The translations under genes and the position numbers were made by a program. A DNA stretch of 64,000 bases from Edaphochlamys debaryana (Eukaryota; Chlorophyta; Chlorophyceae; Chlamydomonadales): the NCBI GenBank assembly GCA_016858145.1, contig JAEHOE010000016.1:1178001-1242000 (forward strand), read 5' to 3'. The notes under the pieces are model-generated. The model searched no databases. It had not been told where the DNA came from and saw nothing but the letters and a program-made list of their open reading frames with translations. This document shows, piece by piece, positions 18,889-56,212 of this stretch. Every line of letters starts with the position of its first letter. Position 1 is the first letter of the stretch.

Positions 18889-21800
18889 TCATGCGCCGCT
18901 GTGGGCCGCCGCAACCTGGGGGCGCCAGACACAGGCGAACCGTAAGATAGGGTGTGCTGAGGTTCTCAAACCCTTGCTTCGCTCGCTTCACCTTCGCTTC
19001 CTCCACCCGTTGCTATTCCCTCCGCCCGTTTCCCGACGCACTGCTCCCTTCAGCCTCCAGTCCCCGCCTTACCGTGGCCTCTTGCCCCCTTCCTCCTCCC
19101 TCTTCACCTCCCAGCTCCCACCCGTCCCTCAGCGTGGCCAGCCTGCCCCCTAGAGGGGGGAAGGGTGAACTGCTCCCTGCACCCTGCAAGTTCCACCCTG
19201 GCCTCCTCCCTCTCCCCCTCCCTCCCTGTTGCCCCTCCCTGTTCCTTCCTCCTCTCCCACACTTCACCGTAATCCGCATATGCTCTCCCCCCTTTCCTGC
19301 CCCTTGACCTCTCTCCCAACCCTCACCGTGATCAGCTTGCCCCCCCTTGAAAGCCCCCTGACAGGCTCGTCCCCCGCCCTCTTCCCTCTTCTTCCCCCGC
19401 CCTCTTCCCTCTTCTTCCCCCAGCCCACTTACCGTGACCAGCTTACCCCCCTGGAAGGTGGAGATGAACTGCTCCGGCACGGCGTGCTCCACCGGGTCCT
19501 CGGGCTCGGCACCCCCCGCCGCCCCCTCGGGGTCGGGGATGACCACCACATTGACCGCCGAGCACTTGGCCGTGACCACCTGTGTACGGCAGCCGTACGG
19601 CAGTTGGATTAAGGCAGTTGGCGTACGGCCGTGCCGCCGCTGCAGCTGCAAAGGGATCGAAACTCCACCCCGGACCCGCGCCTCCCTAACCGCGCACGAC
19701 CTAAGGCCCCCACCGCACCGCGCCGATCAACCTCCAGCTGGGAGCCCCCCCTGCCCCAGGACCCCGCAAGAAAGCAGACGACCCCCCACCCCACCCCACC
19801 CCACCCCAGCCCAGCCCGCCCCACCCCAGCCCACCTGGAAGTTTGGGTCGGCCGCGCACTGCAGAGCGGGGGCGAGGGGAGGTGTCAGAGCGTGTGGGTC
19901 GGGGCCAGGCGGTGGGGGATGAGGGTGAACAAGCCACGGGGCCAAGCGCTGCGCCCTGCGCCCCCTGGCCTGTGTCCGCCCCTGTGTTTCCCGCGCCGCC
20001 GTACGCCGTACGCCGTACGCGTCTGGGTCGGGGCGAGTCCGTGGGGGTCAGGCGTGCGCTGTGCCCTCCCCGTGGGCTGCCCTCGCCCCATGCCTACCGT
20101 GTGCCGCATCCCGCATTGCACCTGCCAGCACCGAAGCCTGTGCCGGCATCCCTACAGCCCCACATCAAATGTCCGCCACGTGCAGGTACGGCGCATTCAC
20201 TGCCGTACGCACCTTCTTGCTGACGTACAGCTGTGCGCCGTCCGTCTTCTCCACGCTCAAGGTGGGTACGGAGCCGGTCACCTGCGGAGTTCACGCCGTA
20301 CGACAGTCAGCGGGGCGCACGTCCGTACATGCACATGTCCAAATCCATCTGGCATCTGTCGCCACGCTGGAGCGCGGACCGCGCGCTGCATGGCTCCCCG
20401 AGCTTTGCCTCCGAGAACTTCCAGATCTTCTAAGATGTGACCCTTCGTGTCCGCATTACTCATCCTGAGTCACCTGCAGCTGGATGCTGTTGCAGTTGAC
20501 CGCCTCGACCACGGAGATGACGTCACCGAACACCACACCGACCTAAGGGAGGGGAGCAACCGTTGGATTGGGGCATCATGGAGCGGTTGCTTGCGGATCT
20601 GACCACCACCGGACATTCACAGGACAGAACCCGACGAGGCCAGGGTGCTGGTACAAGGAGCCGTACGCCCTGTACGGCAGCATACGGCAGTCCCACCTTG
20701 ACGCACTTGTCCAGCGAGATGGCGTTGACCTTGCCCTCTACCTGGAGGGCGGGACGTGTGGGTATCGTGCGTGTGGGTGGTGGAACGGCGGAGCGGGCGC
20801 GTGCGCATAGCCTCGTCGCACATCAGGGTGGGTGGGTGGGTGAGTGAATGTTGTTGATGTAATAAGTCTGATTCTGTCGGCACCAATTACGGTGTCGCAC
20901 ATCACGCACGCGCCCGACCGTGCCTCGTGCGCGGAGGGCTGTTCGCATTTGTTGGCGGCTGTGTCGACGAATCGCCGGGCCCAGGGCAACACCAGCCGGG
21001 CCCAACCGCCACGTGCCTGCAGTACGCTGTCCCGGCAGCCGTACACGTAGATGCTGTTCTTGGGCGCGTCGTTCTCGATCACGAGGTCCGATCTGCCCAC
21101 GTGGTTCTCAACCACCCACTTGGCGCCCTGCAGCTCCAGCCTGGGGGCAGGGGGGCGGAGGGGAGAAGGGGGAAGGTCAAGGAGGACAGCAAGGGTTCGG
21201 ACAGCTCGCTGCGGCAGATGCCGGCCAGATTCACAGCCCACACACAGGATTCCAGATTCCAGGTTCCGTATCTAAGGCCAGCCGGCTAATCACCGCGCCT
21301 ACGCTTTTCTCGGCCTTTACACGAGCAGCCCTGAATACAGAATTCCAGAACTCTCTGCCGCCCGCTACATCCCTTGAGGCAGGAGGCTTACTTGGGCGGC
21401 CCCACCGGCGCTGCCTTGGCCGGCCCTCCCGCCGCCGCCCCCGCCGCCGCCGCCCCGCTGCCGCTGCCCCCCGGCACCGCCCCCGTGCGGTCGGGTCGGT
21501 TCTTTGCCTTCATGTCGTCCGTGACCTTGCGCAGCCCCGAGGTGATGCCCTCGCCCTGTCAGGGGGGGAGGGGGGGGGGGCAGACATAGGAAGGTGAGGA
21601 CAGGGGGGCTTATGAGGGCTCGGGTAAAACCCACATCCCCGCTGCCGTTGCCCGGTACTCCAACGCCGCCCACACCACGCAGGGCCCCTCCCAATCCTCC
21701 TCGTCCCGCATCCGCACCTTGGACAGCTCGGCGAAGAGCTTAGACACGTCCCCCCCGCCCGCCTTGGCCCCCGCCCCCCCGCCCGCCTTGGAGAGCTCCT

Positions 21801-23943: not shown

Positions 23944-24824
23944 GGTCGCCAGGCGTTGAAGACTAACTTTGCTCGAGGTCCCTTCGATTCTGTGCACGAG
24001 GTCGGCTCGTGTCTATGCCTGCCCTCCTAAGCCGCGCAAGCTATATTCAACGCTCCTATGCAAGCTGAAGTATGCGCCCTGCCCGGGTAAGTCGGGGTTC
24101 GTGCCGCAATCGGCCCTTCCCCAGTGCCTCCCCCCCGGGCGCCCCCCGCCCCCAACCCCCGCCCAGCACTTCGCCGCGTTCTCCGTTCTCCAGCCCTCCG
24201 CCCCCACGCATGCAGCTGCTTGGGAGTCCTCCGCACAGACATCCTGCTACCGCACAACCTTCCCACTGTTTCCGGGTCGGAAGGAACCTGCGATGTTTTA
24301 TGGCGGCACGGCGGCAGTGATGGGACGCAGGCCGTCTGTAGGCGTCTGTCGTGCCTTGGTATGCAAAAGCCACTACCGACCGCGCACAAGCCGAGGCGCC
24401 TTCGAGGCCCACGACCAGCCGCAGTTGGGCTTCTGTGTCCGACTTTCATCAAACACACCGTTTCTGTCTGATAAGGGCTACGCAACGACCCAGACCCCTC
24501 AGCCACGAAGCGTTTCTGCTGAATCGAAATACCGGGCCGGCCACCGGGGGCCGGGGGCAACGATGGGTTCGTGCCGGTCACGGCCTGAAGTCGGACCGCG
24601 TGCGGACCCAGTCCTGCAGCGGCTGGCCCCTTTGCGTTTTGCGGCTCAAGACTGCAAGCACTCGAGGTCTGCAACTGCAGACGCTGGAGCAAAAGCTGCG
24701 GCTTAACAGCACACGCTGGTCCATGGCTCTTGACTATAAAGAGACTCTGGACACGCCATACGAAGCACTATGCTGGCCTTAGCATAGGATTCAATCGGGG
24801 GCAGCGCCGTGCGGCTGTCGAACC
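23944..24824. promoter_or_regulatory. Divergent promoter region of CAP (-) and receptor kinase (+)
   Basis: 881 bp separate the two ATGs. TATAAA at 24735-24740 lies 85 bp before the kinase start. A weaker AT-rich stretch near 24040 (minus strand ATATAG) lies about 95 bp before the CAP start. A 245-codon open frame here has no family resemblance and is treated as chance. Confidence 0.55.
24735..24740 (+). promoter_or_regulatory. TATA box of the receptor-like kinase gene
   Basis: TATAAA, 85 bp upstream of the ATG at 24825. Confidence 0.5.
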
Positions 24825-27800
24825 ATGAAACCAAGCGGCAAGGTGCTTGCGGTGTTGCTCCTTCCCAGCCTGCTAGCTTACACGCTAGCCATCACGACAA
24901 AGCGTGTGTACAGCGGGCGCGAGCTGGCGTCCGCCATCAGTTCTGGGGAAAATGTTTCGGGTGAGGCAAAAGCGCAGCTCGGTGCAGCTCGTTAGCGGCA
25001 GGGCGACACCTTTGCCTCTCTGAGAGGCTACTTGGGGATGCCTTCCGCACTCTTCACCCTCCGCACTGCCACTCCCTCCCTCCTCCCTCGTGCCAATTCT
25101 GCGTCCCTGGGCCCCCGTCCCTCCCCAGTCGTCTACATCGGCGTCCCCTTCCTCAACCTCACCGACTCCGACTGGGAGGGCGTCCAGCCGCTGCCGGTGC
25201 CCCTCAGCCGCAACCTGACGCTCACGGGCGCTCCGGAGCTGCCCGAGTGGCCGCTGCTGGTGCTGTGGAGCACACGGAAGGTGAGACTTGCAGGGGGATG
25301 TTACGTGCCGAGGGGGCCCGAGTGGTCCGCTTGTCCCTCCGTGTGAAGGGTTCCAGTCCTAGAGAAGGCCCGAGGTGATTGCGTGCTAGAGCGATGTCCA
25401 ATGTCCAGTACTGAAACCGGCGCCGTGGGGACGGCCAACCTCTCGCGCCAACTGTACCGGTATAACTCTCCTACCTGGCCCCTCACTGCCTCACTCCCTG
25501 CAGCTGATACTTACGGGCGGCGGAGTCTTTACGCTACAGAACCTGCTGCTGTACCGCTATCGGTGGGGGCGAGCAAGGGCTGCCGAAGCCGGGGGCTTGG
25601 GCTGCCGGGCTGCGCCTCCTTAAAGCCCATTGGTCCACGACCCCTTCTGCAAGCAAGACCGCCTGACCTTGTAGCCAACAAGCCAAGACAGTGCTCTGCA
25701 ACCGGCCTCCGGGGCAACAGGGAGTATCCTCAGGGTGACGCTCCCCGGTCCCACACGCCGCCCCATTGCCGCGACGCAGGCACGAGAACGGCAACCGGCC
25801 TCCGGGGCTCGACATCCTGGCCATGAGCCCGCGGGGGCCCAATGGGGGCAGCCTCGTACTCCAGGGCACGATTAACGTGCTGGGTGCGTAGTTCTTTGCG
25901 CGGCAGGGGTCCAGGGGCGCCGGGGTTCAACGGACAAACGGGCTCGGGGGCGAGGGGGGTGTCAGGGACGAGGGCGACCGAGGGCTCTGGGCTCGGAGCG
26001 GCAATGCCCCCCTCCCTGCTTTGCGCGGCAGGGGTCCAGGGGCGCCGGGGTTTAACGTAAAGCCCGGCCCAGCCCAGGGGCTGACAAGCCACTGGGGGTC
26101 ACGCGGTGGGAATTGGAGGTGCTCCGCGCGCGCACTCCCACTCCTCCCACTCCGTATCCCGTGCCCACTTTGGCACGCACCCCCTGCCGTACGTACGGTT
26201 ACTCCCCGTAGATTTCTGCGAGAACCCCGTCGCGCTCGCCGCGATCTACGGCATCGTACTGCGGCCTGCCGTATTCCCGGGTCGCCAGCACGTGGACGTT
26301 GCCGTACCGCAGCCGGGCTGTAGCAACACGTCGGCGCTGTTCCGCCAGGTGTGTCCCGGGGGGGGGGGCGGGCCATGCGGAAGAGACTCCTCGAAGCCCT
26401 GAGCCAGAACCCAGTGGGAAGGGGGCGGACGGAAGGCGGGAGGGCCCCGGTGGGGTGAGCGCGCCGGGGCCAGGGGCAGGGGCAGGGGCAGGGAGGGGAG
26501 TCAGGGGACAAGGCACAGCCTGGCAGGGAGCAGGGGCAGGAAGGGAGCTGCGGGCCTCACGCTCCCAGGTAGCGCTAGCGAACCCACGGCGCTGATCTAT
26601 CAGCGTTCCCAGCCGGGGGCCGGGGCAGCTGGGGGCCGGGCCGAGGAGGCTCCTCGATGGACGCCCTGCACCCCCAACCCTCCCTGCATCGGGCTCGCTG
26701 GCTGCCGCCATACCATCTGGGCTCTCCAAACTCGTCAAATATCACCCCCTGCTTCCCCCACAGCGCTGCTGCGACAACGTTGACCACGCGGTCGACCTCT
26801 CCATGGACGCAGGCGACTTCGACGCGTCAGGTGCGGGCGGGCGGCGTGGGGGAGCATGCGCAGCACGCACACCCCGCACACTCCGCACACCCTCCTGCTG
26901 CAAACCGGTCGGGTCTTCGACGCGTCAGGGGCGGGCGGGCGGCGTGGGGGATGCCGCCAGCTGCCAGCACAGGCTGTGGGAGGGTGGAAAGGTTGGGGGC
27001 AGAGGCCGGTGCTGGCGCAGTGTGAGGGACGCAGGTGCGGCGGGCGGCGTGGGGCCCGGGGGAAAATTGCCGCACACCGTGCCCGCACGCCCCCGCACGT
27101 CTTCATGCTGCACAGCCGGGGGCCTGGGGTCAGAGGCGGCATTGGCACACAGCGTGAGGACTCTGAGGAGTGGTGCTGGCCGCGTGGGCTTGCCGACTTG
27201 CCGGCACCCAGCTGCACTTGTCCCGCCACCCAGGACCCGGCACCCGGCGGCCCACCACGTCCTCCGCCGCCGCCAGCTCCTGCACCCACCACACCCAGAT
27301 ATACCCCGCACAGTGTCCGCACCATGCCATATCCTGCACCACCCCACCCTCACCCCTCCACCACCCCTCCACCAACCCGCTCCTCCTCCGCAGGCTTCGC
27401 CTCCGCCAACTACTACTACCGCGCCCTGGACGTGCGCACGTGCTGCCTGCTGGTGCTGCCACCCGAGTGCCGTCGGGACTACAGCGACCTGGGTACGGGG
27501 GTGGGCGGGGAAACAAGGCGTGTGTGTGTTTTGGGCACGGGCACGTGCTGCCTGCTGGTGCTGCCACCCGAGTGCCGTCGGGACTACAGCGACCTGGGTA
27601 CGGGGGTGGGCGGGGAAACAAGGCGTGTGTGTGTTTTGGGCACGGGCACGTGCTGCCTGCTGCTGCTGCCACCCGAGTGCCGCCGGGACTACAGCGACCT
27701 GGGTACGGGCTGGGGGGAGCGGGGGCGGGGGCGTGCGGTGCTCTCGTAACTACAGTGGCGGGGTCAGGCATCCCTAGCAGGAGCGAGGGCGCGCCCCGGT

Positions 27801-30800
27801 GCCGGGATCTGGATCTGGATTCGGCACAGCGGTTGTAGCTGAAGGACCAAAAGCAGGACCCAGTGGTGCGGCGCTACCCTGACCGGCCTTGCGCCGCAGC
27901 CGCAGTCGAAGACACAACCGCAGCCGCGACAAGCGTCATTGCGCATCCACCTTTCCTCCTTTGCACGGCGGCCGGCGGGTTGAGGGGGTGCCTAGGTGCC
28001 ATCTAGTGTCAGGGTCTACTGGAGGTGTCGCGACACTTCTCTTCCATGACCTGCATGGCCTCTTGTGCTGGTTGCAGGGTGCTGGGCGCACGTCCTGTCC
28101 CTCCGCGGCAACAACAGCGACGACCGCAATCTGTACTACATGCACGGGGACCTCTTCCCGGCGTGGGCGGCGGACGCCGGAGGTCTGGTCAACGCATCCA
28201 CGCAGCCGCTGCCGCCGATGGGGCAAGGCGGCGGCGGCGGTAGCGGCAGTGATGGCTCGACAACCGCGATGGCGGTTGGCGTGGGCGTGGGCGTGGGAGG
28301 TGAGGCGCTGGGTTGCTGAGAAACCTCTTGCCAGCTTAACAACGTGCGGGCAGGATCAAGGTGCTCGGGTTATCCTTGCCATGACTAGTCGACTGGTGTG
28401 CAGATGGGGAGGTGGCCTTGGCCGTCACCCACGCATGGAGACTTGCCGGGACATTATTCATTCGCTCCTAGGAGCCCAGCCGTCATTTTCTTCTGCCTTG
28501 ATCCTCATCTGAGGCAGCGCTGCGTTGAGGTGGCATGGACATTGACCAGACCCACCCCCGCCCGCGCCTCTCCATCCCGCCTGCAGGGGCTGCCCTTGTT
28601 GCGGCGGCCGCGCTGCTGGCGGCCGCATGGGCCCGGCGGCGCGGGGGCACCGGAAACATGTGAGTGGGTGCAAGAGGCGGAGGAGGAGGTCTTGGTGAAT
28701 GTGTGGGGCGGGGACGGGGCAGGCCCATAGGTCAGGGCCTGGGCGCCAGAGCTATGCAGTGCCCGCACGAATCGGTGCAGAGGCGACGGGCGCGTTTGAC
28801 GCACGATATTGCCAACCTGAAAGAGGGGGTTTGCGCACAGCGCCGGGAGCCGGCGCTAATGCTGCCAGCCGTGCAGGGCAGGCCTCTCTCGGCAGCAAAT
28901 TCCGACCTGACCTACGCATCTAGCCCTCTGCCACCGTCCCAATGTCCGCAGGCCGCCCGACACCGCCGCCGCCAAAGCCGGCGACGACGGCGGCGGTGGA
29001 GGCGCCCCGCTGCCCCCGGGCGACTCCTCCAGTGATACCCTGGAGCGAGCCGCCGCCCACATCACCGCCGCCCACACCAGCTCCCTTACAGACCCGGGCC
29101 CAGGCCCAGGCCCAGGCCCGGGCCCGGAGCAAAGGTCGCTTGCCGATGGCGAGGCGGGGCCGGGGGCGCTGCTGCAGTCTGGGCCGCAGCAGCGCTGCCG
29201 GCGCTCGGACGGCCCCTCGCCCATGTCCACCTGCAGCGTGTCACGTGAGCGAGCAGCAGCGAGGGAGGGCAGGAGGGCTTGGAGGGAAGTTTTTGGGGGG
29301 AAGGGGCAGCACGGTGGGGATCAGGGGGGAAGATGAGATGGGGCCCCTCGCCCATGTCCACCTCCAGCGCTTCGCGCGAGCGGGCAGCAACAAAGGCGGG
29401 AGGTGGGGGGCTTGGGGACCGTCACACCTTCAGGGAGGGGGTCGGGCGGGGATGCGGCAGGGTTTGGGCGGGGAAGGGCCATCGAGTTCCAGGTTGCTAG
29501 CTGATCGTCCTCCGGTTTTCCTCGCTGGCCGCGTGCAGTGGCTTCCTCGCTGCCCGTCACGCACCACACGCCCTTCACGGCCGGCCTAGACACCCACGCC
29601 TCCCTAGCCGATCCAGAGGCCGTGGCGGCGGCGGTGGCGGCATCAGAGGCGGGGCTGGTGGACTTCGGCGGCTTCGGCGGCGGCGGCTGCAGCGGCAGCA
29701 GCGGCGGCTGCAGAGCCGCCGCCGGCGGTAGCAGCGGCAGTGCCGGTGGCGGCGTCGGGCCTGGTCCGCAGCCCGCCGCCAGCCAGGCCCCGTCTGAGCC
29801 CGGCTCCGGGCCCAACGATGACGCTGTGCGACTCATCCCAGGGCAGCTGCTGGGGAAGGGCGGGTTCGCCACAGTGCACGCGGGTGTGTTGGTTGTGGGG
29901 TGGAAGGGCGGGTCGGCGGGCCTGCCACCGGTAACTCGGGTCGTGCGACAAAGCGTGTGCCAGCGTGGGTTAGCCCCTGGCTATCGATGCCCTTCAACCG
30001 TCAACCGTCAACCATTTTAACTAACCGCCGTGCGCGCAGGAACCTACCGGGGCATGACCGTTGCCGTCAAGATCCTTCGGTCTGGGGAGGCCGGCGGGTC
30101 CGACGGAAGCAGCGTGGCATCGCGAGAGACGCTAAATCAGGTGCGGTGCACAGGCGTGCGATACCAGTATGTGTTTGGTGCAGGCGCGGTGTGTAACACG
30201 CCCTCAGCCATGAGGACAATGGACGAAACGTTTATCGCTGTTGTGCTCAAGGCCTGACGTAAGCTGCAACCGTCCCAACGGTCCGCGCCCAGGAGCTGGA
30301 GATCCTGGCGCGGTGCCGCCACCCCAACGTGGTGCGCCTCCTGGCGGCGTGCCTCGACCTGCCGCGGCCCTTTATGTGAGAGAGAGGGAAATGGCCGGGG
30401 TAGAGCCGATGGCGAGTCTCAGCTGCCCTGACGTGCCGTGCTCCGCCCCCTCCCCCAGGGTGCTAGAGAAGATGGAGACGTCCCTGGATAAGCTTCTGTA
30501 CGGCAAGGGCCCAGGGGAGCTGCTGCCGCTCGGCCTGGTCAGTCGGCACATGGTCTGAGCGCACCTCGGAACTTAGGTGCCCCCTAGGCGCTTGCTGATT
30601 AAGGCTTCTTGTGTGTTGTTTTTGCAGGTGCTAATGATAGCGAGCGAGATCGCGTGTGGTCTGGACTACCTGGTGAGCGCTGCCGCCCTGGGGTGGGGGA
30701 GGGGTAAATCGGGTGAAAGAGCCTTTGCAGGTCAAGAGCTGAGCTGAAACCTCTGTCTCGGTCGTGGGGGCAAGGTGGAAAGGGGGTTGCTTGAAGGGCG

Positions 30801-32330
30801 ACGATACGTCAGAATCGGACTCGGCGCTCAGTATGACCCAGTTCCGCGCTTGGCCCCTGTGCGCCCCGCACTCCTCCTTGCAGCACCCGACCATTCTGCA
30901 CAGGGACCTCAAGCCGGCAAACGTGCTCATCAGCGACCCCTGGGGATTCAAGCCCGTGGTCAAGCTCTCGGTGAGCGGGGCGCGATGGTGTGGCGGGTAT
31001 TACGGAGGCGCAAGAGGGCCGCAGCGACCGTGCGGCTAGGGGGCCATTGTCCGGGCAGTTCCAAGCGTTACTCCCGTTCCTTGCACCCCACGCCCCAGGA
31101 CTTTGGCCTCTCGCGGCTGCGAGCTACTGTGGTCCACACAGTCAACCCCGAAGCGGGAACGGCATGTTACCTGGCGCCGGAATGCTTCGACTTAGACAGC
31201 CAGATCATCACGTACAAAGCGGTAAGCTCTGACCCATTGTGTACGGCATGCCTCGCGTACGGCACACGTCCTTGGTTGCGACGTACGCCCTCGAATGTTC
31301 GACGCGTGCAGGACATGTGGAGCTTTGGCACTTTGCTGTGGGAGTGCCTGGCGGGCGCGCAGCCCTGGAAGGGCTTCACGCCCGTCCAAATCGCGTTCCA
31401 GGTTGGTTGGGTCGGTTGGGTCGGTTGGGTCGGTTGGGGCGTGTGGCAGGTTGGTTGTGTTGAGCGCTGGCTGTCCCGGACTGCGTGGTTTCGGCACACG
31501 CGTAATAACAACTGGGGTGCCAGTGCAGTGCAGTGCCCCCCCTGCCCTGCCGATGCCAGCCTCCGTCTAGCCCTTACGTGCGCGCTTCCCCGTAGACCAG
31601 CACGCACAGCAGATGGAGGCCTTTTTTATCCTGCCGTACACCCTCGACGCCGTACACCCGCAGATCAACCTCAAGGGCCTGCGCCTGCCCGTTCCGCCCC
31701 TCAACACGCCCGGCGGCGCCGACCCGTGCCGCTGGCCGCCGCGGCTGGTGCGGCTGGTGGGGGAGTGCCTGGACACTGACCCCCAGCGGCGGCCGGCGGC
31801 GGCGGAGGTGGCCAAGTGGCTGGCGGTCGTGGCTGAGGTGCGTGCGGAGCGTGCGGAGCGACGTGGTCGTGCGGCGTGCGGCGTGTGGGGCATGGCGGGG
31901 CCGGTTTAGGGGCTGTCTTGAAACGCAGAGTCGTGGAAGAGCTTCGCGGCCTGCCTCGCTCTCAGCCACTGCTGCCTCACCCCACCTCCCACCCCGCTCC
32001 TGCTCACGGCCACGACCCATCCGCAGGGCCTCCGCACGCCCAGCGCGACGGAGGTTCCCACAGACAGCGCGAAGCAGCCTTGCGGTCTGCGTCCCTAACC
32101 AAGCTCCCTCCCCCATCCCCCCTCTCCCCTCTCCCCTCCCCACGCCCCGCCTCCAGGGCCTCCGCACGCCCAGCGCGAGGGAGCTCGCCAGCCAGCGGCC
32201 GCAGACTGCGGACGGTCCGCCCCGCGTGCTCCGCAGCTCCGTGGACCTCCAGCAGGCCCCCGGCGCACAGCACCAGCCCGCCGCCGGCGGCATCGCTCCT
32301 CAGGAACCCAGTACAGGTCTGGAGACCTAG
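24825..32330 (+). CDS. Single-pass receptor-like protein kinase (TKL-like)
   Basis: Twenty exons: 24825..24960, 25129..25280, 25504..25562, 25780..25883, 26212..26348, 26764..26830, 27394..27492, 28078..28299, 28587..28659, 28952..29244, 29539..29883, 30040..30140, 30293..30375, 30459..30537, 30628..30672, 30884..30970, 31099..31221, 31312..31405, 31596..31837, 32157..32330; about 904 aa. It has a signal peptide (VLAVLLLPSLLAYTLA). The Cys-containing ectodomain (about 24-325) has N-glycosylation sequons and the repeated motif NLTLTGAPELPEWPLLVLW then LILTGGGVFTLQNLLLY. A transmembrane helix (about 326-345, AALVAAAALLAAAWARRR) and a disordered linker follow. The kinase has GKGGFATVHAG, VAVKIL, HRDLKPANVL, DFGLSR, CYLAPECF, DMWSFG and CLDTDPQRRP, so all catalytic residues are present. 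It probably signals from the plasma membrane; the ligand is unknown. The exon 18/19 border is uncertain: 31401/31601 also keeps frame. Confidence 0.85.
25892..26057 (+). repeat. Direct repeat inside RLK intron 4
   Basis: A block of about 40 bp beginning TTTGCGCGGCAGGGGTCCAG occurs at about 25892 and again at about 26018, 126 bp apart. Confidence 0.6.
26818..27060 (+). repeat. Duplicated exon 6/intron 6 junction in the RLK gene
   Basis: The end of exon 6 with its donor (TTCGACGCGTCAG then gtgcgggcgggcggcg) is repeated 99 bp downstream at about 26917, where the donor GT has become GG. A more diverged copy lies at about 27026. Confidence 0.65.
27437..27712 (+). repeat. 105-bp tandem repeat covering exon 7 end and donor of the RLK
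   Basis: Two full units (27437-27541, 27542-27646) and a partial third. Each starts CACGTGCTGCCTGCTG and contains the coding segment LPPECRRDYSDLG plus the gtacgg donor. The unit is exactly 35 codons and open throughout, so using the third donor instead of the first would add 70 residues. Confidence 0.85.
29214..29385 (+). repeat. Duplicated exon 10/intron 10 junction in the RLK gene
   Basis: GCCCCTCGCCCATGTCCACC with its following donor region (cacgtgagcgagcagcagc) at about 29216-29262 recurs at about 29343-29390, where the donor reads gcgcgagcggg and is no longer a GT site. Confidence 0.6.
32027..32185 (+). repeat. Duplicated last-exon start in the RLK gene
   Basis: GGCCTCCGCACGCCCAGCGC preceded by a functional-looking cag acceptor occurs at 32027 and again at 32157. 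The second copy is used in my model because it stays open to a TAG in phase. The first would be a short alternative exon with a weak gtctgc donor in a different phase. Confidence 0.7.
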
Positions 32331-33467: not shown

Positions 33468-33522
33468 GGGTGGGGTGTGAGGCAGAGTTGAGTTGAGTTG
33501 AGCTGAGCTGACGGCGGATCTA

Positions 33523-37041: not shown

Positions 37042-40000
37042 TCACTGCCAAATGTCGAAGCCCTCGAGCGGCACGAGCACCTCGTTGCGGCGGAAGGGCC
37101 CGGGGGTGGAGGGGTCGTTGTATCGTGCCAGGGTGTAGCCCGAGGGGGAGGCCGCGCGCACTCCATCCCGTGCGAGCGAGTCCCTGTCAGGAATGTGACG
37201 GAGGATGGGACAGACATCGTGTTGGGAGAAGGCTAAGAGCAGGTTTTGATAAGTGTGGGTTTCGTTGAGACTTGGGGAGCACGCAGAGCACCTGTTGTGC
37301 CGGAAAAGCCCCAGCCGCCGACCCCAAGGGAGCCCTTGCTTGTTCCCCTTAATTACGCCCTCCGAGCAGACGTGAGCAGGTGCCCTGCTTGCACATTCGC
37401 TGCTTTAGCCCTCTGGGCAGGGGGGCCGCACGGACCGCACCTGAGCGCCTTGGCCTCGCGGCTGGCGTCCTCCTCCTGTGCCACACCCGGGAACAGGCGC
37501 ACCGCGAACACGCCCCCCTCCTGGCGGCCTAGGGTGACGGCGGGGGAGTTGGGCGCGGGCAGCTGGGGCAGGGCCTGGGGTAGGGGGAGGGGTGGAGGGA
37601 GGGGTGGGACGGGGGAGGTGAGGCGTGTGTCCGGGCCGTCTACCCTACCCTACGAAGGGCCTCCCATCCAGCGCCCTAACCCTCCCTCCAGTTCTGCAAC
37701 CCCACACCGCCTCCCTCCCGGCCCGGCGTCAAAACTTCTGTGCGACAGTACGGCACAGCCAATTGTATGTGCACATGTCGTACACGTGCCGTACGGCAGT
37801 ACGCACCTGCAGAGCCGACTGCCCGATCACGAAGCGCATGCTGCCGGCCGTGTCTGAGAACACGGGCGTGGTCATGGCCATTTTGGTGCGCGCGGCGTTG
37901 TCGCCAAAGATGTACTTTGCGAGCGAGCCGAACGCGCGCTGGCCGGGGCCGGCGGGGTTGACCTGGACCTGGGAGGAGAGGAGGGGCCCGAGGGGGTGAG
38001 GGGGTGAGGGGGTGAGGGGGTGAGGGGGTGAGGGGGTGAGGGGGTGAGGGGGTGAGGGGGTGAGGGGGTGAGGGGGTGAGGGGGTGAGGGGGTGAGGGGG
38101 AGCAGTCAGGCAGGGTGGGAGCAGGGTGGGGCCAGGGTAGGGTTGTTGTGTGCAGTTGCTAAATTAAAACGGGGAAGCGTGTGTGTGTTTTAGGGGGTTA
38201 GGGCAGACGGGATGGGGCGGGGGCTGGGGCGGGCGAAGGGAAGGTAGGAGCAGGTTGGGGGCAGGATTGGGGTACAGGATGGGGAGCGTGGTGCGGGCGC
38301 CTGAGCCTAACTTCCTTCCGGGTCAAGGGCAGAGGCCCCACCGCCAGGAGGTTAACATGACTTACAGCCCCCCTTCCGCCCTCGCTTGTGTGACCACACA
38401 AGCCCGCTAACCGCCGGTAGCGGCCGCCACCCACCTGCCCGGCCTTGAGCACCTCACGGTTCAGCTGCCCCGCCGCATCCATGGCAGTCTCCGCCACGAC
38501 GTACGGCTCGTACCGCCGTACCTCGTAGTCTAGTGCGCGCCTGTGTGGGACAGCGGGAAGAGGGTTGCATGTTGGGGAGGAGGTTACGGCAGCGTACGGC
38601 AGGGTGCTGGCACACGACGGGTTCTGGTCCCAGATCGGTACGGCAGAGTTGCGCTTGCGCAAGGTAGCGAGTGCGCGCCCCGGCGGAAGTTTAAAGGGAC
38701 ATCAAAGGGTACGGTACGGTATGTTCCAAGAGGGGCCGTGCGGGCCGCTCCCATCAAGCCGCGGAAGTGGGCTTGAATTTCCGCAATCCTCCGCCAGCAG
38801 GGCCCGTAGTTCTGCTCCCATCCCTAACCAAGATTTACGACATCACCCGCCCGCTGGCCGCACCGTAGGATGGTGTACTCTGGCGTCTCGATCTTGGGGG
38901 TGGTGTAGAACGACAGCAGCTGCTTGAAGAAGTCGACAAAGCCCTCGACCGAGAAGAACTCCTGCGGGGCAACACAACAGACGAGGCGTGGTTACGGGGT
39001 TACAAACGGGCCGACGGGAGGGGGGATGCAGAGGGGCGCAGGGAAGGGGAGGTGAGGCAAGTCCGTCACTTTGAGTGCGGGCGGCCCCGATCGGTCTCCA
39101 AATTGCAATTGCATTACAAAGACTCCGCAATGACTCGTTGGAGCGTGCAGTGGAGCAGGCGCGTGGGAGGGACCCCACGCCTTGGCCGTTTGCTGGCACG
39201 TGCTTCACCCCACCCCACTCCCCAGTCTCCCCCACCTGGTTGCGGATGCTGTCCCACATGTCGATGTGGCGGTAGATCTTGCCCGAGTCGGGGTTGAAGA
39301 CGTAGGTGGAGGTGCCTGGGGGGGGGGGAAGGGGAAGGGGGGGAGGGGAGAGAACGGCTTGGAAAGCGGCAGAGAGGAGTTCCACATGTGGGGGACCCTG
39401 GGGCACCCTGGATAATGGCAAACAAGACACCGCCTTCCCCCTCTTGCCTGCCTGCCTCCCCCCCAACCCCCTGCCCCCCCCCCCGTGACCTTGTCCCTCC
39501 CCTTTCCCCGACGCCTTCCCCCTTCCTCCTACCCGTGAAGGTGATGACTGGGTCCCAGTACTTGCGGGTGGGCAGCGCCCCGGCGGGCGTGAAGCGCATG
39601 CTCATGGTCCACCTGAGGGGGGGGGGGCGGAGGGGAGGGGGAAGGGAGGGGGGTGTTGATCTCTGACAGTGTGAAGCGCATGCTCATCGTCCACCTGGGG
39701 GGGGGCGGAGGGGAGGGGGAAGGGAGGGGGGTGTTGATCTCTGACAGTGTGAAGCGCATGCTCATCGTCCACCTGAGGGGGGGGGGGCGGAGGGGAGGGG
39801 GAAGGGAGGGGGGTGTTGATCTCTGACAGTGTGAAGCGCATGCTCATCGTCCACCTGGGGGGGGGGGCGGAGGGGAGGGGGAAGGGAGGGGGGTGTTGAT
39901 CTTTGACAGTGTGAAGCGCATGCTCATCGTCCACCTGGGGGGGGCCGGGGGGCGGGGGGCGGAAGGCAAGGGGGGAGAGGGTAGGCAAGGCGTGAGGGGT

Positions 40001-42014
40001 AGGGGAGGGTGGTGGCAGGAAGGGGGGCGGGCATGCTCATGGTCCACGTGGGGGAGGGGAAGAGGGGGGGGCGATGGGCAGGGGGGGAGGATGGGGGACA
40101 GGGGCGAGACCACCACACATGGGGAGGAGGGCAAGCTCCGACTTCGTGCACCCCCGCCCCGCCCTTCGCTGTCGTACTGCCTTACCGTGTGGTGATGTCG
40201 TACGGCCCCGTGAGGCGCATGTCGTGCAGAATGAACTTGGGGTCGAAGGCCTGGCGCACAGAGGGAGGGTGGGGGGTTCGGGTGGACATTGGAAAGTGGG
40301 ACAGAGTTCGACCGAAGTCGGCGATGTCGCATACATAGCTGTTCGAGCTTCGCGTTCGTCCTTATCGCCCCACTTCTGCCCGGTACAGCTCCGGCCCGGT
40401 TGGGTACCCGCCAAACGTCGGCCCTTGTTCCTCAGCCCGTGAGTGCCCCACCCAAGGCGCCTTTACACGTCCGCTCTTGGTCCCCCCCCGAGGGCCCTCC
40501 CTGTGCTCCCATGCTACCAAGGCCTCTCCTGTGGAGCCTGTGTGTGGAGCCCTCGCCCCAGTCGCCAGGAGGCCCCCCCTCCCCCGTGCGCCCCGCCCGG
40601 TGGGCGCTCGTGGCTCGTCAAGTGCTCGTCCCACCTTGCGCAAGAATGCGATGTTGAAGAGGTACCCCTTGAGCGAGTCGTACTTAGTAATGGGGTCCTT
40701 GAAGTCAACCACCTCCTCGTAGCTGCGGCGGGCAGGTTTTGAAGGGGTTGGGACAGTCGGGGTTGGGATTAAGGACGCCAATCGGCGACAGGTTTTCATG
40801 AACAAGAGCCGGCAAAGCCGCCCAGAGGATGGGGGGCCAGGCGCCCATGCGCAGTGCCCTCTGTTGCTGCCAGCCGGCTTCCGCCACGCAGGGAGGTGAG
40901 GTCGGGAAGGGAGGGGGCAGGGCGGAGCGCTGCCAGCACCGGCGCATGCTTTGCCCGCCAGCCCCGGAATGAGCAGCAGCCCTCTGCACCGCACTGCCGA
41001 CCACATGCCACACCTCGCCACTGCCCTGCCCTGCCCTGCCCTACCCTGCTCCGCCACTGCCTTAGATTGGCATGCCCTGCCCTGCCCTGCAATGGCAGGC
41101 AACACCCGAGCGCAGCCGCCGACTCCCCAAGCCCATGCAGATCCCCGCGCCGTTACTTGTTCACGCACTTCCCCCCACCTGTGGGCCCTTTACCTGTTGC
41201 TCCTTTTCCCGTGCTTCCATCTGTGCTCCATGCCCTGCCCCTTCCAACACCCCTCTGGCAACCTTGGCCATCCCCCATGTTACCCACACACCAGCGGCAT
41301 CCATGATGGATCATCATCCATGCCCGCCCCTTTCCCCCTCCCCGCTTCCCCCTTCCCTCCCCCTTCCCCTTCCCTCCCCCCCTTCAACCCCCCCCCCCCC
41401 CCCACCTGGTGGCATCGATCCCCTGGTCATCAAACAGGTGGCCCAGGTCCTCCCGCAGGAAGTCCATCTTGGCCTGAGGGCAGGGGAGTGCAGCGGTGTT
41501 GAGGGGCGGAGAAAGTTGCTGGCATGCGTGGGCGTAGAGCTTGCGACTTGAGCGACGTGGGGGTATGCCGCGGGCGGGGGCGTGCAGGGTTGGGGGCTGG
41601 GGACTGGGCGCGGGTAGGAGGCTGGGCATGCGTGTGGCATCTAGACGCGTGCCTTGAGCCCCGGAGGGCCGAAAGTACAGAGAGAGCGCTGATGCAAGCC
41701 CATGGCGTGCTTTGTGCGCAGGACGCGGACGGGACCTTTCCCCGCCACTCGCGAGTGGCTGGCTGGAGATGCCCGCCCCATGGCCTCACCTGCATGTCAA
41801 GCTTTGACTCCACATCTGTAATAGTAGTTGTCTTTGTAGTAGGTGCGCTCGCTGCGACAGTCGAGCAGCCCCGGCGCAGCTCCGCGGAGGAAACACATCC
41901 TCTGCTGGGCACCGACGAGCGCGCTGCCGCCTGATGGACTGACGCTGGTAGTGCTGCAGCCCCGCGCCTGCTCGCGTGGCTGCTAACGCGGGTGGGGCCT
42001 GGTTGCAGCTGCAT
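37042..42014 (-). CDS. Plastid DUF2358-SOUL haem-binding family protein
   Basis: Eleven exons: 41790..42014, 41406..41473, 40635..40722, 40186..40250, 39533..39612, 39236..39315, 38864..38961, 38435..38540, 37807..37968, 37441..37574, 37042..37183; 415 aa, all phases consistent. The N-terminus (HASRRGAAALPASVHQAAAR) is a chloroplast transit peptide. Residues about 76-222 are DUF2358 (FLREDLGHLFDDQGIDATR, VVDFKDPITKYDSLKGY, YRHIDMWDSIRNQ). Residues about 223-411 are the SOUL/HBP fold (IETPEYTILRRALDYEVRRY, KMAMTTPVFSD, GYTLARYNDP, RRNEVLVPL). This two-domain order is known from plant plastid SOUL proteins thought to bind or carry tetrapyrroles; haem binding is inferred. Intron 4 holds an array of duplicated exon 5 acceptors and intron 8 an 8-bp minisatellite. 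Confidence 0.88.
37990..38100. repeat. 8-bp minisatellite (GTGAGGGG)n in SOUL intron 8
   Basis: About 13 perfect units of GTGAGGGG on the + strand. On the coding (minus) strand this is a C-rich tract starting about 20 nt before the exon 9 acceptor, so it may supply the polypyrimidine tract. The G-rich strand could form quadruplexes. Confidence 0.9.
39591..40050 (-). repeat. Array of duplicated exon 5 acceptor junctions in SOUL intron 4
   Basis: The true exon 5 start (minus: ccctcag then GTGGACCATGAGCATGCGC) is followed upstream in the intron by four close copies and one partial. The copies are marked on the + strand by gaagcgcatgctcat at about 39591, 39673, 39751, 39833 and 39913, plus a fragment near 40028; spacing is 78-82 bp. 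Each copy keeps a C-rich tract and a cag acceptor but carries GACGATGAG instead of GACCATGAG. Each then runs into a short shared non-exonic tail. Confidence 0.85.
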
Positions 42015-44456: not shown

Positions 44457-47400
44457 ATGTTTAGGAACCAGGTGCGGCCGGGGCAGGCCGTGTAGCTCTG
44501 ATCTGGCGCCAGTCGGAGCCCATGCCTGACGCTTGGGCTTACACGATGGCGCCCTCGCGCTCCCGCTGCAGTATGACACCGATGTCACGACGTGGAGCCC
44601 GCAAGGGCGACTCTTCCAAGTGGAGTATGCGATGGAGGCGGTGAAGCAGGGCGGCTGCGCTGTGGGGCTCAAGGTGAGCTCGAACTGGCTTGCCCGCACA
44701 CGGTCGGGCCTCCGCGTGTTGGGCCTCCCTTCTCCTCCCGATATGCCGCGGTCTCCGCACGGACAAGACCTACTCTGGGTCCTAGTCAGTGTGGACATGA
44801 AGGCTCACGCAAATGCGCCGGCCGGCAAGGGTGGTGGACGGCGCTGAGGCAGGGCCTCGGGTGGTCTCCGCCATTCTGGGGTGGCGTCAGGGGCCGGTAC
44901 CGATCAGGTTTGGTCCGCCAAGGCAGGCTGATGCGGGGTCAAAGATCAGATGTCGAACTCCCAGGTGTACACCTAGGTCTACAGACTAGGGGGACCTGGC
45001 CACCAGTGCCAGCGGGCTCGGCCTGGCCCGGGCGAGGGGGGGCGCAGGGTCCAGCGGTGGATGCAGGGCGTGGAGGTGGGAGCGAAGGAAACCGGGAGGG
45101 AGCCCTTGGGCCGGGACCAACAGGGCCGTGGCCATCTGGGTTGGGTTGCATGCGCACCGATGCCGGGGACCGCCTGCGTCTGCGCCTGGCCTCCCGTGCT
45201 CCCCCTCCATGGTCAGCACCTGCCCGGTCCCAGGCCCTCAGCCCCCCCCGGGGCCCCGGCCGTAGCAGCAAGGGCGCAGCTCCACGGGCCTGAGCCTGAG
45301 GCTGAGCCAGCCCATGCTCGGGCCGGGCCCTGCCCCTGCCACAGCCGCCCCCACCGCACCCGGCGCTCACCCCTGCTCCCTCCTTCCTCGACCTAAACCC
45401 CTCTCCCCCCTATCCCCCCTCTTTCCCCCCTCTTGCCTCCCTCCCCCCCAGTCTGAGACCCACGTGGTCCTGGCCACCCTCAAGCGCTCCCAGTCGGAGC
45501 TCTCGTCCTTCCAGGTGGGGGGTGGGGGGAAGGGGATGCGGGGAGGTGGGGTGTGGCGCGCTTCGGAGGGACCGAGCTCTTGAGGAGGGGCCGCAGCTCC
45601 CTTCAGTACCTCTCCCAAGCCCCCCTCCTTCGCCTCCCTCCCTTCCCTCTCCTCCCCGCTTATCGAGCGCGCCGGGCTAGCTGGCCGCTCAAATTGATAA
45701 CCCTCCCCGCTCCCAGCAACAAATACCCCGCCCCCCTCCCCTCCCTCCCCTCTTCCCCGCAGCGCAAGGTGTTCAAGATCGACGACCACATGGGCATCGC
45801 CATTGCGGGGCTCAACGGCGACGGCCGCTCGCTGTGCAAGTACATGCGCAACGAGTGCATCAACCACCGGTGGGGGGAAGGGGGGGGCTGTGGGGGGGCC
45901 CTGTCAGGGAAGATGCTGGCCGGGGGCTCGGACAGGAAGAGGGGGACACGGAGCCCCGTGTGTATGAGCGGGGCGTGGTGGCTGCTGTTGGGCTTTGCTC
46001 TTGACATCTCCGCGTCCGCCCCGCCTTTCGCGTGCCCCTCCCCTCGACAGCTACGTGTACGAGAGCGCCATGCCGGTCGGGCGGTTGGTACGGCAGATCG
46101 CGGACAAGAGCCAGGTGGGCCCGGGCTGGGCTGGGCCGGGCCTGAGGGAACGGAGTTGAAGCCAGGTGCAGGGATGCGGGGCCAGAACGCGGGAAGGCAG
46201 GGTCAAGGCCGTGGTCACGTCAGCAACCGGGGACCGAAGGTGCACCAACCCGCTCTCGGCTCCCTAGCGCCTGTTAGTCGCAGCTGCTCCCCAACCGTGG
46301 GCTTTCTTCGCCTGCCCCTCCTTCCGGACTCCCCCGCTCACCCCGCTGGGCCCCCTCCGTACACCTTCCTCGCCCCCTCCCTTCATTCCTCCCTGACCCA
46401 CGCCTCTGTTTCTCAGCACCCATGCCCGTCCCGATTCTCTCCCACGCCCGCCACCCCCCCCTGCCCCGTCCCCCCCCCCAGGTGTGCACGCAGCGGTCTT
46501 GGAAGCGGCCGTACGGCGTGGGCCTGCTGGTGGCCGGGGTGGACCGGCAGGGGCCCCACCTCTTCAACACCTGCCCCAGGTGAGGGCGGCCTAGGGGCGC
46601 GTGCCTAGGGGGCGGGGGGGTAGGGGGCGGAGGCGCGGACGCCAGAGGCTGACACGGTCCTTCTTCTGTCCTTTGTACCGGGGCCGCGCACGCAGCCCCG
46701 CCGGCCCCCCGAGTCCCTGCGTGCTTCAGCACAGGAGAGCTTGTCGGGCGGGCCACGGGTTCGCGGAGAGCGTCCCAGGGGAAACCACGTGTCCTCAAAA
46801 CACACACGCTTTACCCCTGGATTCTCCCCCCTCCCCCGCCCCCCCAGCGGCAACTACTACGAGTACAAGGCCATGGCCATTGGGGCGCGATCGCAGGTGC
46901 GGGGGGAGCTATGGTGTGTGGCGGTGTGCATGACGTGCTCGTCGGAAGCAGGGCGTTTGGGGCTGTGGGAAGGGCTGTGGGCACGCCGCGCCCCCCGAAA
47001 CCCGTCCGAGCGCCGCACAGGCCCCGCCCATCCCCCTCCCCCCGATCGCCCCGCCCGCACACTCGCTCACCCCTCCTGCTCATCCCGACACCATGTCATT
47101 CAACCCCAACTCACCAACCCCAACTCACCAACCTCCTACGTGTCAGCGAAACACACACGCTCTCCCCCCTCGCCCCCCGCCCCCTAAAGGCCGCCAAGAC
47201 GTACCTGGAGAAGCACTTTGAGTCCTTCCCCGCCGCCGACATGGACGAGCTCATCAGGCACGGGCTCAAGGCGCTGCAGGTGGGGTCGGGGTCGGGGGGA
47301 GGCGGGGGGCGGAGAGCATGCGTGTTTTGCCGACACATCAGCTCGGGCGATGAGGCTCTGGTCAGCATGGGGAGCAGGGGAGGCCGGTGGAGATGGGGTT

Positions 47401-48066
47401 CTGGGGGAGGGGAAGGACGGGGGGGGGAGTGGGCTCGTCAGGCTTGGCATGAAACGCGCATACAACCGTTCATCGGCATGATGTCTTAAATTGTATTACC
47501 CAAGGATACCCTGGCGATTCCCTGGCGTCGGCGCGATCCCGCTCAGCAACATACACCCCCCTCCGCCCCTTAGGCCTCCCTGGCCGAGGGCGAGCTGACC
47601 GCCGCCAACTGCTCGGTGGCAATCGTGGGGAAGGGCTTCGCCTTCACGCTGCTCGAGGACGCCGCCGTACAGCCGTACGTGGACGCGCTCAAGGAGGACG
47701 AGCCCATGCAGGCAGGATCTGGGATTGGGATCTGGAACCGGGGTTTTCAGGGGGGGCTTACGGTCTTGAAGAAGGGAGAAGGCAGGGGACCGCCAGCCGA
47801 AGAGATAGGGCACTGGTAAACGCTTGACCTCCAGGATTGTCTGCGCAGCGTGCACCGACTTAGGCTCTGGCCCATAGCCGTCGCTTTGCGCCGCCTTTGA
47901 CCGCTGCCCCCTCCACATCCTTTCCCCTGTGCACTCTCAGGCCGAGGAGGCCGCGGCGGGCGAGGCCCCTGCCGCCGCCGAGGCGCCGGATGAGCCAGCG
48001 GGCGGCGAGGCGGCGGCGGCGGCGGCCGAGGCGGATGGCGGGCCGGCGCCCATGGAGGCTGACTAA
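44457..48066 (+). CDS. PAF1: 20S proteasome alpha subunit, PAF1/PSMA1 type
   Basis: Ten exons: 44457..44471, 44572..44673, 45452..45514, 45763..45869, 46051..46114, 46482..46579, 46848..46896, 47190..47279, 47574..47711, 47941..48066; 283 aa. The product is part of the alpha ring that gates the 20S core. The five-codon first exon MFRNQ joins [19 protein letters not shown], the proteasome alpha signature, followed by [15 protein letters not shown]. Other conserved blocks are [61 protein letters not shown] and [13 protein letters not shown]. These fit the PAF1/PSMA1 (alpha6) subtype rather than other alpha subunits. The C-terminal tail is long and Ala/Glu-rich, ending PAPMEAD. The donor after exon 9 appears to be GC (CAG then gcagga). 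No TGTAA is found nearby. Confidence 0.93.
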
Positions 48067-53800: not shown

Positions 53801-56212
53801 GCGTCGCTGTCGGGCGGATCTCCAGATCGTGCGGCAGGTGGTGCGCTCGGAGGATCAGTCGCACAGGCGCGCGGTGACGTGGCGTGCAAGGTGCTGGGCC
53901 TATTCCATGCCGCTCGCTACATGGAGGGACGCGACTGTGTTGAGATGCCCCCCGGCTCGGGGACCTTCATCTCCCGGAGCCACTTCGAGAAGGTGGGGCA
54001 ACGTGCTTGCTGTTAACGCTTTGCTTTCGCGGGAGCACCGTGAGCGCACCGTAGTTGAAATTGCCGCATGTTGCCGAGCTCAAACCGGCCGTCATGCCGT
54101 GTCACGCCCATACTCACCTGGCACCCCTGCTCCCGCCCCTCCTCCCCACGCGCAGGTCGGCGGCGCCGCCACCGCCAAGTGGTACCGCTCCATCCGCGTG
54201 CTGCCCTCCCTGGAGCACCTGGGCTCGTGGCTGGGGCGACACGGCATGCCGGTAGGCGGGCGCCTGGGCACCGACCGCATTCACGAAACGTACTGAGGGC
54301 ACTGAGGATGGGGGGGCGGCCTGGGTACCGTAGCGCAGGCCCCCCGGGCCAGGGGCAGGGGCAGGGGCAGCGCCGCGTGGGAGGGACGAGGTACCGCACT
54401 GGGTGCCTCGCTAGAACCACGACCAGAGGCGGGCTTGCGTCGCTAATATTGCCACGATGCGGGGGTTCTAGTGTGTGGTGGCGGGTGGGATGTGGTCTCT
54501 GAGCCGGTCGCGCCCCCGCACAGGTGAACAAGGGCCGAAGGGGTGGGGTGGAGTCACCTCTTGTCTCCAAGCCGGTCGTACTGGAGATGTGGCACATGTT
54601 TAGAGGGCCAAGGGGGATGGGGTGGAGCCACCTGGAGATGCAGTACGGTACGTGGTTCAATGGTTGCTTCGCTCACCCCGCACAGGTCTTCAAGGGCCAG
54701 GTGCGGCGGCGAGCGGGGGCCGCCGGCGCCGGCCGCGGCTCCTGCAGCAGCGGGGCAGCCCCCGCCAGGCTGGAGCCCTCCGCCGCCGCCTTCGGTGGCG
54801 CCGCCGCCGCCACCTCTAGGCTGGCCGCCGCCACGGGTCTCGGCCGTGGCCTGGCGGAAGCCCTCGGCGGCGCCGCCGGCCCCGCGGCTGCCGCCGTCGG
54901 GGCCGAGACAACTCTAGGGCCGCCGCCCGGGGCGCTGGGGAGGGGCAGGGAGGTGCCGGAGGGGTCCCGCCGCGGCGCCACGGAAGAGGCGAGGGGCCAC
55001 GGGTCAGAGCGTCCGACCGGTCGGGGCCCGCCTGGGCCTGGAGCGGAGCCGGGTGGGCCCGGGCGGGCCTGGGGTCGCCGGCAGGTTCCGCCGGCGCACG
55101 CAGGTTGGCTAGACGACCCTAGGGCCGCCGACGGGCACGATCGAGCTGAGGGGCCCGGGAGGGGCCCCGGATGGGCCTGGCAGGGCCCGCCTGGGCCTCG
55201 GTACGACGGGCCGCCGGGGGCGCCACCTGCGCGCCGCCGTCAGCCGTACTGGCCGCCTCCGTACCACGACTGGGGCCCGCCAGCGCCGGGGCCCACGCCA
55301 GGCCCTCGCCTGGCTAGGACGGGGGCTGGCGGCGGCGACAGCCCGGCGGCAGGGGAGTCGGAGGATCACCCCAGCACAAGCGATGCTGACGAGGCAGCCG
55401 CCGCCGCCGCCAAGGGACCCACCGCCGGCGCCGTCAGGCGCCGCGGCGATGGCGACGGCGGCGGCGGGGGCGGCGGCGGCGGCGGCGGCACCGGCGGCGC
55501 CGTCAGGGGCAGGGGCAGGGGCAGGGGCAGGGGGCGGACGCCGAGCTCCGGTGGCTCCTCGCCGCGGGAGAGCAGCCCCGCCGGGACAACGGGCGGCAGC
55601 GGGGGCGAGGGCTCTGCGGGAGTCGGCGGCGGCGGCGCCGGCGGCGGTGTCGGGGAGACGGCCGGCGGCGGCAACCGCGGGGCCGGCGGCGGCGGCGCCC
55701 GCAACCGCCGGCCGCTGGCTGCATGGAGCCCGTACATGTACGGCCCGCCGCCGCCGTACCAGCCGCGGCCTGGCCTCGGGCCGGGGCCGTACGGCGCTCC
55801 GCCCCCGTACGGACATGGGTTCTTTGCTGGGCCGTACGGTGCATGGCCACCAGCGCCGTACGGAACGCCGTACGGAGCGCTGCCTGCACAATGGCCACTT
55901 CAGCCGCGATCTCGCGCTGGGGGCCGGGGCGTAGCATCAACACGCCCCAGTCCCAGGCCCCCCCTCCCTGAGGGAGAGGAAGGCACAGGCGACGGCCGCG
56001 GCGGCGGCGCCGACAGCGCTAGCGGCAGGGCCGGCGGCGCCCTGAGTGGAAGCGACGCAGAGGCAGCGGCGGCGGCGGGGCCGGAGCGTGCGGGCCGGTG
56101 GTTGGGGCCGCCTGGCGGCGGCGCTGGCGGCAGCGGCGGCGGCAGTGCAGGACCCTCGAGCGCCGGCGGAGAGGCGGCCCAGCTGCGGCCCCACAGCGCG
56201 CCCACTGCAGGA

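Follow-up and report, generated by a model that had tools for sequence, protein, structure and literature searches.

Exon edges and splice sites repeated within introns of Edaphochlamys debaryana: possible traces of short insertions with long target duplications

In a stretch of 64,000 nucleotides from Edaphochlamys debaryana (positions 1,178,001-1,242,000 of contig C16, which is 1,353,924 bases long; hereafter the window), seven introns in four genes (CAP, receptor kinase, SOUL and VARL-like) carry additional copies of a neighbouring exon edge together with its splice site. We propose, with a probability of about one half, that each copy is one arm of a long direct repeat, which arose when short insertions into G tracts next to exons duplicated 42-102 nt of their target, and that the copies then decayed neutrally. 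The arrangement repeat-insert-repeat was found at many loci, a dispersed motif was present in part of the inserts, splice dinucleotides were lost from the copies at a neutral-looking rate, and the annotation uses the exon-proximal splice sites. We infer that the inserted piece came later and that the repeats around it are duplicated target sequence.

Results

Exon copies flank unrelated inserts

The window was analyzed within a sample of 314 kb (C16 978,001-1,242,000 and C1 300,001-350,000), about 0.2% of the genome, and the rates of copies given below are based on this fraction plus pattern counts in the genome searched (141.9 Mb, 502 contigs). Negative positions count leftwards on C16 from the first base of the window. 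A self-trained, home-made gene finder applied to the 314 kb gave 50 genes with 538 introns.

A filtered search kept the best repeat pair in 31 introns, and an exon edge forms part of 24 of these pairs at an identity of at least 80%. Seven of the 24 rows were dropped because they belong to two arrays that the gene finder had split into mini-exons. In the remaining tally, in which head-to-tail arrays are underrepresented, 16 of 17 pairs enclose an unrelated spacer, 39-139 nt in length, and the remaining pair (27436-27709) is arranged head to tail. The spacer was present in six of the seven pairs at 94% identity or more. In clean events, inserts of 23-76 nt that carry the motif lie between repeats of 42-102 nt. 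By reading, the exon copies exceeded the inserts by one in four arrays (three and two at 27436-27709, five and four in the SOUL gene, three and two at both -110208 and -109426).

Furthermore, no motif stood behind the last exon copy at 11 of 14 assessable motif loci. Motifs usually number one less than exon copies, as expected if an insert duplicated its target and the pair in some cases went on to expand into an array, and not if a unit that already held the motif was duplicated; the count is also compatible with an exon edge copied behind an older motif. Judged by the spacers and the motif-free last copies, plain tandem duplication, in which copies adjoin and the whole unit is repeated, fits poorly, although seven head-to-tail arrays do exist (see below).

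A dispersed motif occurs in part of the inserts

At the ten repeat loci that were read, the spacers often end in similar sequence directly ahead of the second exon copy. The motif of some inserts is the 24-base sequence AARGCGTGTGTGTWTTGGCACG, and eighteen seeds, chosen by eye from 77 regular-expression matches with exon-adjacent ones favoured, align to about GGGGAAACAAGGCGTGTGTGTATTGGCACGGGCACG, reading away from the exon. A profile search of the sample gave 19 matches at E<=0.05, all of them intronic and 17 with an exon at a distance of 27-69 nt on their G side; this position statistic is partly circular, because 14 of the 19 are eye-picked seeds and four are their array mates, leaving one new match. 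By our own count, the motif loci at this threshold comprise nine at donors and six at acceptors, in DNA-mirror orientation.

Genome-wide, the 19-nt core had 178 matches within one mismatch and a 23-nt form had 85 within three mismatches, compared with none for either reversed sequence. Many core matches lie in arrays with a period of about 100-134 nt, and 22 of the 100 core places listed belong to one array on contig C32. Twenty further places on 19 contigs, picked from the 85 for contig spread with arrays included, showed the order exon edge, splice site, G tract, motif; judged by eye, the exon edge was repeated clearly at ten and marginally at two. At a further one (L040), the exon-edge repeat is present and was seen on the other strand. 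When flanking exon-edge repeats were scored by one fixed test, they were found at 18 of 34 motif loci versus 16 of 300 control intron ends, and at 5 of 13 single places on other contigs (p = 8e-4). The same test scored L036 as having no repeat, yet its array is plain by reading.

The motif has a fixed end on the G side and a variable far end, and motif loci resemble one another over only about 24 nt inside the intron end. It can fold into a short CGTG/CACG stem, which is suggestive at most as a mechanistic hint.

One motif-bearing array has an unusual form. At L023, about 380-940 (C16 near 1,118,400-1,118,940, or -59,620 to -59,060), five exon-like units of 33 nt are separated by short motif-bearing introns, and the gene finder read these units as in-frame mini-exons of 11 codons each. 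Arrays of this kind might contribute coding repeats.

Exon edges match their own introns more often than expected

We aligned each exon edge (up to 45 nt) to its own intron, with length-matched introns of other genes as controls. A score of at least 14 was reached by 40 of 524 donors and 17 of 529 acceptors, versus 90 of 10,498 alignments to other-gene introns (Fisher, 3e-22 and 1e-5), and by 11 of 964 in a second control, the intron across the other side of the exon. The initial annotation of the window had considered the copies too many for coincidence, and these controls bear it out. A donor excess was apparent at scores of at least 15 (31 donors, 11 acceptors; p = 0.003). The reversed-sequence control gave 3 loci versus 154 on C16, and 0 versus 11 on C1.

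Junction-spanning repeats occurred in 43 of the 538 sample introns (about 8%), a count that takes in introns within the two arrays split into mini-exons. All 43 are among the 446 introns on C16 (48 of 446 in a looser count), and none was found among the 92 on C1. The suggestion that the copies are a general feature of the genome therefore holds in so far as they extend beyond the window and the same structure is found on other contigs, but their distribution is uneven. In the C1 stretch (300001-350000), G runs near donors were no rarer than on C16 (0.435 of introns versus 0.410).

Copy-to-copy distances cluster at 76-140 nt and drop above 140, and introns with copies were longer than the others (median 355.5 versus 195). 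Of the complex 24-mers on C16 centred at exon edges, in the last 15 nt of the exon, 6.0% were repeated at donors (in 39 introns) and 2.9% at acceptors (in 18 introns), with 0.13% between genes; part of this peak must reflect exon conservation, as against the decay of intron-derived copies on both sides. The comparison that the initial annotation had set as its own refutation, repeats at junctions against repeats elsewhere in introns, gave a mixed result: repeat rates per 30-mer were similar at junctions and in introns (1.7% and 2.2% in confident models, 3.1% and 2.2% in all models), but the intronic copies are themselves counted in the intron class.

Donor-side copies are linked to G runs near the exon

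Introns were 51% G at 6-30 nt past their donors and 59% C at the matching place ahead of their acceptors. A G run of at least five in the first 80 nt was present in 28 of 31 donor-copy introns and in 188 of 472 others, whereas acceptor copies had no significant link to C runs (8 of 11 versus 271 of 492). The G/C tract beside exons is probably what draws the events to junctions. The idea of a replication or repair process that favours junctions accordingly stands in part: the copies do peak at exon edges, but many pairs are not plain tandem duplications, and the attraction probably lies in the tract. A lack of events between genes does not serve as proof of a gene-specific process in the case of the motif, because 85% of the G/C runs of at least six outside exons are intronic.

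Splice dinucleotides of the copies are lost at the neutral rate

Retention of splice dinucleotides was counted on 35 of 57 rows with a score of at least 14, namely those in which the alignment covers both bases. Donor copies kept GT in 22 of 28 cases (21.9 expected from the identity of each copy) and acceptor copies kept AG in 5 of 7 (4.7 expected), 27 of 35 in total against an expectation of 26.6. Because retention matches what identity predicts, there was no indication that decoy splice sites are under selection; such selection had been offered as one explanation of the copies, and we rejected it. In annotated proteins, read by eye, the exon-proximal site was used at all five junctions checked (26830, 27492, 29244, 32156 and the SOUL acceptor).

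The home-made models were compared with the published annotation (Craig et al. 2021, PMC8226300), which according to that paper drew on RNA-seq; it has 9.31 introns per gene and belongs to an assembly of 527 contigs totalling 142.14 Mb. Median intron length was 198.5 nt in our models and 198 bp in the published ones. The SOUL model protein is identical to annotated HYH03_005072 of E. debaryana, and the kinase protein of the window matches HYH03_005070, from which the model departs by a false exon at 27234-27314 and by an incorrect exon start near 31601. CAP, Pkinase and SOUL domains were over the Pfam cut-off, and a SAND domain in the VARL-like gene was under it (E 0.077).

Copies at the individual loci of the window

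Copies were detected by self-BLAST of the window and by alignment of exon edges to their own intron. All seven introns reported in the initial annotation were confirmed in this way, with copies on the donor side and the acceptor side that range from identical to decayed.

The last intron of the CAP gene (18916..19432, minus strand) contains three decayed copies of the upstream exon end and donor, at 19322-19351, 19128-19176 and 19068-19089. Their scores were 18.5, 23 and 13.5, respectively; the next best among 82 introns of at least 350 nt was 12.

The kinase gene (24825-32330, plus strand) has several repeats. A 37-nt repeat has its first copy, an exon end with the donor used in the annotated protein, at 26817..26853 (junction 26830/26831); the second copy (26915..26951, 97%) is intronic, lies behind an unrelated 61-nt spacer and has its donor GT changed to GG. 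At 27436..27709, there is a 105-nt array of 2.6 copies with 98% matches, in which exon-end-and-donor copies alternate with motif-bearing inserts (motif matches at 27498-27556 and 27603-27661; used donor 27492/27493). An exon end with its donor at 29211-29277 recurs in the intron at 29342-29407 (82%) across a 64-nt spacer, the donor of the copy being GC. On the acceptor side, 31936-32053 and 32071-32183 are 73% identical; the used acceptor is 32156/32157, and the intronic copy has AG (alignment 32010-32068). Self-BLAST also detected an intron-only pair of 39 nt (25894-25932/26019-26057, 97%) that flanks an unrelated 86-nt spacer. A paralog of this gene, HYH03_005076, is 52% identical; its protein keeps the exon join at the position of the 105-nt array, without the repeat, and among all stretches of the sample the window's kinase gene is the sole match to its first 318 residues.

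In the SOUL gene (minus strand), the acceptor and exon start form a five-copy array at 39589..39975 with four short inserts in between (used acceptor 39612/39613), and both self-BLAST and edge alignment detected a decayed sixth copy at 40031..40059. Another intron repeat of this gene, at 37990-38100, is a perfect 8-base array (GAGGGGGT, 13.9 copies). The VARL-like gene (plus strand) has an acceptor-side copy at 54514..54553, upstream of the acceptor used in the home-made model (54685/54686); it was graded weak because its score of 18.5 is followed by 15.5 for the next best of the 82 long introns.

A proteasome-subunit gene (minus strand) contains the motif without a visible exon copy at 46783..46828, 42 nt inside the acceptor end (E 7e-4, no flanking repeat), and at 47139..47178, 31 nt inside the next acceptor end (E 0.012). 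Elsewhere in the window, three tandem paralogous genes with a common five-exon layout in the home-made models lie at 5256-17321; two of them were seen by self-BLAST.

Discussion

A possible course of events

The copies could arise as follows. A short DNA piece would insert into the G-rich tract (C-rich in mirror image) that lies just inside most intron ends of E. debaryana and would duplicate about 40-100 nt of its target. As the tract borders directly on the exon, this target would usually take in the exon's edge and the splice site. Splicing would continue at the exon-proximal site, so that the protein is unchanged and the intron gains about 76-140 nt per event. The intronic copy would then decay neutrally, some pairs would expand to arrays by unequal exchange, and the part of the inserts that carries AARGCGTGTGTGTWTTGGCACG would represent one dispersed family.

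As machinery, a C-tailed RNA may have been reverse-transcribed after priming on a G run, or a staggered break may have been end-joined with templated filler. The fixed end on the G side, the variable far end, the long repeats of variable length and the landing by G runs would fit either. 5'-truncated non-LTR retroposons have one fixed and one variable end and target duplications of variable length. The present structures would be alike in both respects, with 42-102 nt if the repeats are target duplications, but their inserts are tiny and no reverse transcriptase copy was near the motif among the matches listed. Genome-wide, at least 150 of 712 candidate reverse-transcriptase matches were scored, many in long open frames, so that retroelement activity in this genome is plausible. 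None of the best 150 of the 712 lay within 13 kb of 70 motif places, so that among these matches no candidate was seen for an element that encodes reverse transcriptase and ends in the motif. Penelope-like elements of green algae, reported to insert at CA repeats, may be a further lead.

A more specific proposal is that a miniature mobile sequence of about 25-45 nt with a conserved core is copied into exon-adjacent G/C tracts, perhaps via a C-tailed RNA, lengthening introns and creating none, each insertion duplicating 40-100 nt including the splice junction. We put this forward tentatively, as a possibility on which we have clear doubts.

An origin linked to transcription through R-loops had been prompted by the donor excess and by G skew. 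The skew was positive in 26 and negative in 10 of 42 intron-internal repeats (p = 1e-4), but 4 and 3 in the ten most complex ones (p = 0.65). The R-loop origin was not kept as the main account because the motif loci sit at both donor and acceptor ends (nine and six).

Evidence against insertion and the competing explanations

Several observations weigh against insertion with target duplication. The position statistic of the profile matches is partly circular, as stated above. The motif is clear in just one of the seven window introns (27493-28077), most junction events lack a clear one, about half of the motif loci lack a flanking repeat, and neither a parent element nor a longer motif copy was seen. 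Behind the last exon copy, a decayed motif with five errors was present at L037 and -122841, and a motif visible by eye at -107919 scored within the background (11 of 120 random introns have five errors or fewer). The C16 sample contains seven head-to-tail arrays (-115085, -110208, -109426, -59570, -5709, 27436 and 39589), most of which are missing from the spacer tally through the complexity filter or as split rows. In addition, target duplications of this length far exceed the 3-9 bp of known introners.

The first competing explanation, which we regard as rather doubtful, is ordinary local tandem duplication at unstable G tracts, in which later decay or partial conversion erased the similarity within the unit. 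Units of about 100 nt would often hold a junction, given introns of about 200 nt and exons of about 110 nt, and the existence of head-to-tail arrays, the similar repeat rates of junction and intron 30-mers, and the weak similarity that persists along the unit in several older pairs all agree with it. In its pure form, random duplication constrained by geometry alone, it was favoured at first on the equal rates of the segments; it was weakened by the peak at exon edges, the spacers and the motif-free last copy, and remains as a rival. Ordinary duplication leaves unrelated spacers between near-identical exon copies, last copies without motif and a dispersed sequence family in the inserts to be accounted for. 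In a different view, the motif had long been present at intron ends and acts as a hotspot of breakage or recombination; after a break beside it, the upstream exon edge and G tract were copied in behind it. Motifs without a copy at the same exon distance (L042, L044, L046-L048, L052, L053, 46783 and 47139) speak for such a hotspot, as might a (GT) run beside a G tract, which could form unusual DNA. We nevertheless consider it unlikely, in that it does not explain how a conserved 24-nt sequence reached many unrelated intron ends in mirrored orientation.

The other alternatives are far less credible. Strong sites do survive in some copies, for example in all four extra SOUL acceptors, as would be expected if selection maintained decoy sites for purposes such as regulated alternative splicing; this is very improbable with GT and AG retained only as identity predicts and with exon-proximal splicing in every annotated junction checked. 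That the copies mark the birth of introns by tandem genomic duplication seems equally remote. Exon sequence is duplicated in both cases, and two C16 arrays resemble repeated mini-exons with short introns in the home-made models, but the window introns extend well past one repeat unit and contain the copy inside. An artefact of the assembly or gene models is the least probable of all; the assembly is built from long reads and the home-made models contain at least one false exon (the kinase exon noted above), but divergence of all degrees (70-100% identity), the occurrence on many contigs and the agreement of junctions with annotated proteins argue against it.

Relation to known systems

Insertion with target duplication would here be located at intron ends, and it would lengthen existing introns rather than make new ones. 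Introners, as described by Gozashti et al. (2022, PMC9860276), likewise form dispersed families largely confined to introns, and their target duplications can carry splice sites. The motif resembles them in its many dispersed intronic copies (the core matches, arrays included, and the profile matches, which are mostly seeds). Each introner, however, is an entire intron and its target duplication measures 3-9 bp, whereas the present similarity covers a core of about 24 nt inside the intron end, and the flanking repeats are 42-102 nt long. Nothing like an element that equals an intron from end to end was seen, in a study that made no all-against-all intron comparison. The main text of that paper names neither Edaphochlamys nor Chlamydomonas.

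Insertion at staggered breaks with flanking direct repeats has been proposed for intron gain in Daphnia, according to a review (PMC3443670). An insert between direct repeats of the target is common to both, but the Daphnia repeats are short and belong to new introns, unlike the long repeats, existing introns and recurring insert motif described here. With respect to break repair with filler, our inserts are flanked by direct repeats at a putative former break; a motif is common to some inserts and none is visible in many. The same review discusses tandem genomic duplication as a source of introns, in which exon sequence and a splice signal are also duplicated. Here, the copy lies within a larger intron with a non-copied insert between the copies, and in none of the seven window introns is the intron bounded by both copies. 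Small tandem duplications at breaks with protruding ends (PMC8355091) are similar in being local duplications at overhangs, of 43 bp in that case, but no fixed insert sequence is described in the part of that work considered here. In the open-licence literature searched, we found no description of such a structure in Edaphochlamys or Chlamydomonas.

Meaning for intron evolution

The G-rich 5' and C-rich 3' parts of introns would be a testable cause or consequence of the copy process. The process itself is concrete and countable, adding about 76-140 nt to an intron per event and leaving the protein untouched at the junctions checked; it yields a prediction of the places at which decoy splice sites and errors of annotation originate, and it supplies a motif to seek in relatives. 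Annotated species of the core-Reinhardtinia lack the usual peak of short introns, for which the cause is given as unknown (Craig et al. 2021, PMC8226300). If a miniature mobile sequence does act in this way, it could help to explain the unusually long introns of the core-Reinhardtinia.

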